Notes under the pieces: model-generated
Database searches by the model: none
Told to the model about the DNA's origin: nothing
What the model saw: the letters and a program-made list of their open reading frames with translations, nothing else
Shown here: one piece after another, positions 3,662 through 5,008 of the stretch
Position numbering within the stretch: the stretch's first letter is position 1
Layout: each line of letters opens with the position of its first letter
Source: an uncultured Actinomycetes bacterium
GTDB taxonomy: Bacteria > Actinomycetota > Coriobacteriia > Coriobacteriales > RUG844
Direction of reading: 5' to 3'
Assembly: GCA_900313875.1 (NCBI GenBank)
Contig: OMSY01000048.1
Location: forward strand, 1 to 11,344
Length of the DNA: 11,344 nucleotides
Made by a program: the position numbers and the translations under genes

Positions 3662-5008
3662 ATGCAACGGACGGTCATCATCATAGGTGGAGGCGCTTCG
3701 GGGCTTGCTGCCGCCATCGCGGCGGCGCGTGCGGGAGCACAGGTCACGGTGCTCGAGGCCGGTCAGCGCGTGGGGGCGAAGATCCTGCGCACGGGCAATG
3801 GCCGCTGCAACCTCACCAACCGTGACATCTCGCCCGATGACTACAACGACCCGGAGTTCGTCACCCCCGTGCTGGAACGCTGGGGTTCTGAGGAGATTCT
3901 CGGTTTCTTCGAGGAGCTTGGTCTTCTGGTGCATGAGGACAGCTCGGGGCGCATCTTTCCCCTGAGTGACAATGCGACCTCGGTTCTCGACGTCCTGAGG
4001 TTCGAGTGTGCTCACCTCGGCGTCGAGGTGCTGTGCTGCAAGCATGTCGTCGACATCGAGCGGCTCCGGGCCGGGGACTGGGACGGCGGGGACGTAGGTT
4101 TCTGTCCCGCCCACACGGCGGGACAGAAACCTACGTCCCCGCCGTCCCAGTCCCCGCTGTCCCCGCCGTCCCAGTCCCCGGCCCGGAGCCATCATCGCCT
4201 CATCGTGCGTACCGGGGACGGGGCTGGATACGAGGCGGACGCCGTCATCCTGGCCAGTGGTGATGATGCATCCTTGGCGCAGGTCTGCGGGCTGCGGCGT
4301 TGCAAGCAGCGTCCGGTGCTCTGCGGTCTGCGATGCGAGCGCGGGCCGCTCAGGGGTCTCGAGGGCCTGCGTGCCCAGGTGGGAGTCACCTTGCTGAGGG
4401 CCGGCAAACCCCTTGCGCGGGAGCGCGGCGAGGTCATCTTCAAGAAGGAGGGCGTCTCGGGCATCCCCATCCTCAACCTCTCGCGCGTCGCGGAGCCGGA
4501 TGATGAGCTGTCGCTCGACCTCATGCCGGACAGGTCCGAAGACGGGCTCGCCATGCTCCTGCGGCATCGTGTCGAGCAGCTCTCCTGGCGTGCGCCTGGG
4601 GATTTCCTCATCGGGATGATGCATCGACGTTGGTCCGATGCCGTGCGCAGGCAGGCGAAGGGCATGCATGCCGGTCCAGCCGGCACAGGTGGCACCAGGG
4701 CCTGTGAGACCCCCGATGCCGCCTGCCTCGGTGGGACGTCTCCCGAAGCCCTCGCACGCGTGATGAAGGACTATCGTCTCGTCGTCTCGGGGATCGCGGA
4801 TCCCCGTGCTGCGCAGGTGACCCGTGGCGGGATCTGCAACGATGGGTTCGACCCCGACACGTTGGAATCCAAACACATGCCAGGTCTGTATGCGAGCGGC
4901 GAGGTACTCGATGTGGACGGCAGGTGCGGTGGTTACAACTTGCACTGGGCATGGGCATCGGGGCTTGTCGCCGGCACGCATGCTGCGCAGCTCCCTTCGG
5001 GAACGTAG
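3662..5008 (+). CDS. HI0933-family NAD(P)/FAD-dependent oxidoreductase (aminoacetone oxidase-like) with an in-frame palindromic insertion
   Basis: This 448-residue flavoprotein has an N-terminal Rossmann dinucleotide motif (IIGGGASGLAAAIAAARAG, residues 7-25), Glu32 for the FAD ribose, and the family hallmark TGNGRCNLTN (44-53). GRIFPLSDNATSVL, GEVIFKKEGVSGIPILNLSR and a C-terminal VDGRCGGYNLHWAWASG follow in the usual order. Members are annotated as aminoacetone oxidase-like or BaiN-like; the physiological substrate is generally unknown. Residues about 134-177 (rich in G, P, S, Q) are encoded by a long palindrome at 4062-4190. Removing its 129 bp keeps the frame and leaves about 405 residues, near the family norm. 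The adenine/flavin strip after VILA reads SGDDASL rather than the usual TGGxS...GsdG loop. ATG at 3662 has GGAGGG 5 nt upstream. It may be impaired by the insertion, but the frame is intact throughout. Confidence 0.9.
   Translation: MQRTVIIIGGGASGLAAAIAAARAGAQVTVLEAGQRVGAKILRTGNGRCNLTNRDISPDDYNDPEFVTPVLERWGSEEILGFFEELGLLVHEDSSGRIFPLSDNATSVLDVLRFECAHLGVEVLCCKHVVDIERLRAGDWDGGDVGFCPAHTAGQKPTSPPSQSPLSPPSQSPARSHHRLIVRTGDGAGYEADAVILASGDDASLAQVCGLRRCKQRPVLCGLRCERGPLRGLEGLRAQVGVTLLRAGKPLARERGEVIFKKEGVSGIPILNLSRVAEPDDELSLDLMPDRSEDGLAMLLRHRVEQLSWRAPGDFLIGMMHRRWSDAVRRQAKGMHAGPAGTGGTRACETPDAACLGGTSPEALARVMKDYRLVVSGIADPRAAQVTRGGICNDGFDPDTLESKHMPGLYASGEVLDVDGRCGGYNLHWAWASGLVAGTHAAQLPSGT
4062..4190. repeat. 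Large palindromic (REP/RPE-like) element inserted in frame in a flavoprotein gene
   Basis: Bases 4072-4111 and 4117-4156 are perfect 40-bp reverse complements around the loop CACAC. Beyond the right arm a 24-bp near-copy follows (4157-4180). After it, GGCCCGGAGCC (4180-4190) pairs with GGCTCCGGGCC (4062-4072), so allowing for the duplication the ancestral arms were about 50 bp. The arm core contains GACGTAGGTTTCTGTCCC. The whole element is 129 bp, exactly 43 codons, and is read without a stop as part of the flavoprotein. It holds no transposase and no clear target duplication. It behaves like the Rickettsia palindromic elements known to insert in frame in genes, or a REP unit moved by a RAYT transposase elsewhere; the family assignment is inference. 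Confidence 0.9.
4133..4180 (+). repeat. Tandem duplication of a 24-bp unit within the palindrome's right arm
   Basis: Bases 4133-4156 and 4157-4180 are identical except for their first two positions (AC versus CT); the 20-bp core starts CCCCGCCGTCC. The unit is eight codons, so the reading frame is kept and the protein gains a repeated SPPSQSP motif. The left arm has only one matching copy, so the duplication came after the palindrome formed. Confidence 0.9.

Follow-up and report, generated by a model that had tools for sequence, protein, structure and literature searches.

A probable REPIN read in frame within a flavoprotein gene of an uncultured Coriobacteriales bacterium

Background

REPINs are inverted doublets of REP sequences that are thought to be moved by RAYTs, and as described in the text of Bertels and Rainey (2011, PMC3116915) they are extragenic. 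The main text of Di Nocera et al. (2013, PMC3733652) reports REPs of the GTAG/CGTC kind within genes of several bacteria, where dimers or groups encode 20 - 30 amino acids and larger clusters 43 - 82, and it suggests that the residues so added are neutral in linkers or loops. The palindromic elements of Rickettsia (RPEs), which lie in frame in protein genes, are described in the same text, with RPE-4 and RPE-6 as CGTC-tagged repeats and RPE-1 as longer palindromes. In-frame REPs within genes are already known from other bacteria, and the case presented here adds the Coriobacteriales.

The locus lies in a window of 11,344 nucleotides, the whole stretch of DNA that was analysed (contig OMSY01000048.1). 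It is like the REPINs of PMC3116915, so far as that text describes them, in being a short inverted REP pair that makes one hairpin and is repeated in the genome, with REPs of its family flanking a RAYT in three relatives; it is unlike them in standing in frame inside a coding sequence and in belonging to a Coriobacteriales sequence family. With the in-gene GTAG/CGTC REPs it shares a REP dimer that adds residues to a gene product, but the repeat sequence and the lineage differ, and whereas the main text of PMC3733652 places GTAG at one end of the palindrome in the GTAG superfamily, in the matched units here GTAG/GGAG is internal and falls within the hairpin when a single REP is folded. The window element is, like the RPEs, a palindrome inserted in frame into a protein-coding gene, although the lineage is unrelated and the comparison is with the description in the main text of PMC3733652. 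That main text contains none of the names Eggerthella, Slackia, Actinobacteria, Coriobacter, Cryptobacterium, Atopobium, Olsenella or Collinsella, passages of PMC6006769 and PMC12306157 gave no match to the Coriobacteriia name looked for, and among the titles found in the open-access literature searched none deals with REPs inside genes of Coriobacteriia.

The palindrome and its host gene

The palindrome consists of a 29-bp repeat, GGGACnnnGGGGACGnAGGnTTCTGTCCC, present twice in inverted orientation, and its coordinates and those of the host gene are given in Table 1. A sequence-only reading had described perfect 40-bp inverted arms around a 5-nt loop, extendable to about 50 bp once a duplication was removed, in an insert of exactly 43 codons with no stop, and all of this was borne out at exactly the positions proposed: the inner arms pair at 40/40 bp and the outer arms at 32/32 bp, a perfect 22-nt direct repeat sets a period of 24 bp, and with one 24-bp unit taken out the element becomes a perfect 50-5-50 palindrome of 105 bp (35 codons). 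The inverted REP doublet also makes a single hairpin in predicted folding, the RNA of positions 4040-4210 reaching -130.7 kcal/mol against a shuffle mean of -71.4 (sd 4.3; n=200; z -13.7). A chance palindrome is ruled out, the 29-bp unit recurring in the genome where a reversed control gave no match.

Table 1. Coordinates of the host gene, the palindromic element and its parts in the window
Feature	Position	Strand	Remarks
Host gene, HI0933-like FAD flavoprotein	3662..5008	+	PF03486 E 1.3e-55; PF22780 E 4.8e-9
Palindromic element	4062..4190	.	129 bp, read as residues 134-177; without counterpart in homologue P0001
REP unit 1, GGGACGGCGGGGACGTAGGTTTCTGTCCC	4080..4108	+	0 mismatches against family pattern
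REP unit 2, unit-1 sequence inverted	4120..4148	-	0 mismatches against family pattern
Inner 40-bp perfect inverted repeat, left arm	4072..4111	.	Repeat search
Inner 40-bp perfect inverted repeat, right arm	4117..4156	.	Loop at 4112-4116
Outer 32-bp arm, left	4062..4093	.	Repeat search
Outer 32-bp arm, right	4159..4190	.	Repeat search
24-bp tandem duplication, copy 1 (eight codons)	4135..4158	.	Direct repeat D19, 22 identical bases
24-bp tandem duplication, copy 2	4159..4182	.	22/24 bases identical to copy 1

The gene runs from an ATG to its stop with no internal stops and encodes 448 amino acids, or 405 without the insert; the coding signal is positive on either side of the insert, and solved relatives of the protein include 2gqf, 3v76 and 2i0z. 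Homologues do show the insertion-free state that had been anticipated. The nearest full-length one, P0001 (408 amino acids, 72% identical), lacks the 43 residues when compared at the protein level, reading VVDV-GWRRDRDGRPIPVDGSS-RFTVRT where the window has VVDI-ER-[insert]-HH-RLIVRT, and none of the 29 aligned loci of relatives carries an insert of like length and kind or, at up to 4 mismatches, the REP itself. Ten of these 29 loci have other, longer regions at the insert site, and one (L018) has a short PPASRQPARSKHARR stretch.

An AlphaFold model of the host protein (13-sequence alignment, mean pLDDT 76.9) predicts that the extra residues form a disordered loop within the turn of a beta-hairpin, because residues 140-159 and 161-176 of the insert fall below a pLDDT of 50 between flanking strands at 129-135 and 179-184; the earlier suggestion that the insert may add a flexible loop agrees with this prediction. 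The further suggestion that the element is tuned to be harmless when translated found no support, since four of its six frames are free of stops and 2000 mononucleotide shuffles average 3.4 such frames, and selection for translatability is therefore not needed.

A repeat family of the Coriobacteriales

The sequence-only reading had proposed a search for further copies of the palindrome in the host and its relatives and would have been refuted by their absence from related genomes; such copies exist. The host draft genome (G000; 1.16 Mb in 217 contigs, 80% complete) contains six matches to the 29-bp REP without mismatch, in five places (contigs C69, C134, C160, C179 and, twice, the window); a shorter core pattern gave 16 matches, eight per strand, against none for the control, a looser 14-mer gave 13 against one, and a variant REP pair stands on contig C89. 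The end of C134 and the start of C160 are one identical REP copy at which the assembly breaks, so that these may be a single locus and the copy number in the host is uncertain. With up to 3 mismatches the REP was found in 40 of the 395 genomes of the order, the control matching in none, and the number of sites reached 51 in G336 and 46 in G154. Three genomes of a 396-genome sample of the phylum matched, all inside Coriobacteriales, and the REP was absent from the 361 sampled genomes that by our own count lie outside the order; the reversed control gave one match in the sample. An exact scan of named genomes with a slightly looser pattern, from which records of the window's own genome were possibly left out, returned five stretches, four in CALULO01, an uncultured Atopobiaceae MAG, and one in JAFSHA01, an Eggerthellaceae MAG. 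At L008 (G015), around positions 1500-1600, there are tandem GGGAC modules (GGGACAGCGGGGACGGGGACACAGGGG...) that are possibly a relative or a degraded form of the REP.

The surroundings of the REPs, with 3 or fewer mismatches allowed, were surveyed in 14 genomes represented by 64 sources (the window, seven other host loci and 56 loci from 13 other genomes), with genes called by our own codon-usage script rather than a published gene finder. Of the 82 REP clusters obtained, 60 share no more than 15 bp with any called gene, and 36 of the 60 lie within 30 bp of one. Plain inverted pairs, the window included, account for 21 clusters in 10 genomes and have perfect arms of 19-45 bp, among which the window's arm length ranks sixth; complementarity beyond the REPs extends for 0-11 bp in these pairs (mean 3.3), and for the window element in its present form it is 8 bp. 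In the remaining 22 clusters the overlap with a called ORF exceeds 15 bp; most of these overlaps are at the ends of ORFs, where the short side has a negative coding score. Many copies thus appeared to lie within genes, mostly as an effect of over-long ORF calls, and only two of the 82, that in the window and L156 of G274, are flanked on either side by 50 or more codons whose coding score is positive. In 22 further genomes, examined at one locus each with a pooled codon model, 19 clusters are without overlap and three overlap a gene, none of them deeply. The overall figure for deep in-gene clusters is 2/104, drawn from sites among the up to ten matches listed per genome and covering 36 of the 40 REP-bearing genomes (all save G004, G350, G377 and G388). 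The family is accordingly repeated and mainly extragenic, as REPINs and BIMEs are.

The second deep copy (L156, positions 1752-1847), in a genome of genus g78, is a 96-bp REP pair in the gene of a CoA-enzyme activase, where it is read in frame in the linker that joins the BcrAD_BadFG domain to the DUF2229 domain. This linker is variable: it could be extracted from 16 of 30 relatives' loci, in which it measures 37-76 residues, and in a congener, G273, it has 62 residues and no palindrome. Both deep copies would therefore occupy permissive loops or linkers, the insert in the flavoprotein being a predicted disordered loop and the activase linker being variable. The same activase linker in L232 (G031) reads CHPERAQRVEGSRAAA...STPALRASAQDDNH, which looks like a different interspersed repeat translated in frame.

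A rival reading is that the hairpin has been kept for a role in the mRNA, a stem of about 50 bp being cut by RNase III or slowing ribosomes and so tuning the output of flavoprotein. The predicted RNA hairpin is indeed very stable (z -13.7), but the family lies mostly off called genes (60/82 and 19/22 clusters), the aligned homologues, P0002 apart, are without the element in this gene and there is no sign of selection for the hairpin here, which makes such a role very unlikely.

The link with RAYT transposases

The host genome contains one RAYT, as the search for a RAYT/Y1 transposase proposed by the sequence-only reading had envisaged. It has an HYH motif by our own reading, and no family REP was found within its 3.5-kb contig at up to 4 mismatches. 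Being unflanked, and only 31-38% identical to the 19 other RAYTs compared, it was dropped as a proven cognate of the element. Neighbourhoods were surveyed, also at up to 4 mismatches, for 57 PF01797-positive loci representing 55 distinct places. Family REPs stand on both sides of a RAYT in G041 (L047), where the copies are recognised only if 4 mismatches to the consensus are allowed, in G154 (L126/L251, one place) and in G336 (L245), and a single REP accompanies an IS200-type locus, L212, in G336. Three of the ten RAYT-type loci from REP-bearing genomes are thus flanked, and at the same threshold the other seven (G000, G004, G064, G110, G144, G176 and G371) are without a family REP, those of G110 and G176 having other inverted repeats instead. 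At L053, L057, L246 and L247 other Coriobacteriales RAYT genes are enclosed by inverted repeats that are based on GGGGACAGTCCCC or GGGACTGTCCC and are unlike this REP.

A PF01797 match is present in 35 of the 40 genomes with the REP versus 205 of the 355 without it (memberships by our own count; Fisher p 1.4e-4, by a test that ignores relatedness and completeness), and the five REP-bearing genomes in which none was found are G147, G183, G273, G377 and G388. The profile also catches ordinary IS200 transposases, one of which is the sole match in G318. Taken with the flanking REPs of the three relatives, it is likely that the element was mobilised by a RAYT.

Variation at the insertion site

Two sequences suggest that the site may vary between near-identical sequences. 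P0002, a partial protein of 289 amino acids from an Actinomycetota MAG, is 98% identical to the window protein and starts inside the insert, reading SQSQSLPPLPSQPPARSHH versus SPPSQSPLSPPSQSPARSHH in the window, so that its in-frame repeat at this site is a different one. P0121 (211 amino acids, on one 2.2-kb contig) corresponds to the window gene minus exactly 100 bp, after which it is out of frame; the deletion has five equivalent junctions, with CCG common to both ends, and looks like one between short direct repeats flanking the hairpin, though it could be a misassembly. The final protein search matched only P0002, and no empty site was found at the nucleotide level. It is conceivable, but unlikely, that the in-frame REPIN makes the gene a hypermutable site, a contingency locus carried by the REPIN, at which the hairpin drives deletions and duplications of GGGAC modules and a single species comes to have both in-frame variants of differing loop length (window, P0002) and frameshifted off alleles (P0121).

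Another proposal is phase variation, in which the palindrome would act as an unstable switch with in-frame alleles leaving the flavoprotein on and frameshifted alleles turning it off. In favour of such a switch, the site is seen in three states among the proteins (that of the window, the in-frame insert of P0002, and P0121 with its 100-bp loss and frameshift), but the off state depends on a single 2.2-kb contig that may be a misassembly at the hairpin and a conserved flavoprotein would be an unusual contingency gene; the probability of a switch is accordingly put very low. Decay of the gene into a pseudogene, or an origin of the palindrome as an artefact of amplification or assembly, might be suspected from a draft genome of this completeness and contig number, from the P0121 frameshift and from the breaks of C134 and C160 at the REP, but is highly improbable given an intact 448-aa frame with coding signal flanking the insert on both sides, the same repeat in assemblies of other genomes and, in P0002, which comes from other sources, an in-frame insert at this same point.

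The explanation that is very probably correct is that a REPIN or BIME, an inverted doublet of a Coriobacteriales REP that is usually intergenic, was inserted in frame in a gene of the HI0933 family and has been tolerated there. A RAYT, an HUH/Y1 transposase, would have moved the element as a single-stranded hairpin into the beta-hairpin turn of the flavoprotein, where its length, phase and GC-rich sequence would have left the reading frame intact and a long floppy loop would be tolerated by the turn. The flavoprotein with its insert would be made and functional, and slippage at the hairpin may have given rise to the 24-bp duplication and to the other protein states seen in P0002 and P0121. The original idea is supported in part: the in-frame mobile palindromic repeat is borne out by the copies elsewhere, the insert-free homologues, the RAYT in the genome and the predicted disordered loop, but neither the notion that the sequence was tuned for translation nor a role in RNase III cleavage or ribosome slowing found support.

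Implications

Such palindromes can break assemblies, and hence predicted proteins, in metagenome-derived genomes, as a warning to those who work with them. The window case extends in-gene REPs to the Coriobacteriales and ties them to repeats that flank RAYTs in relatives. As the same site seemingly differs among near-identical sequences, the fate of a translated REPIN, whether kept, trimmed or frameshifted, may be followed directly.
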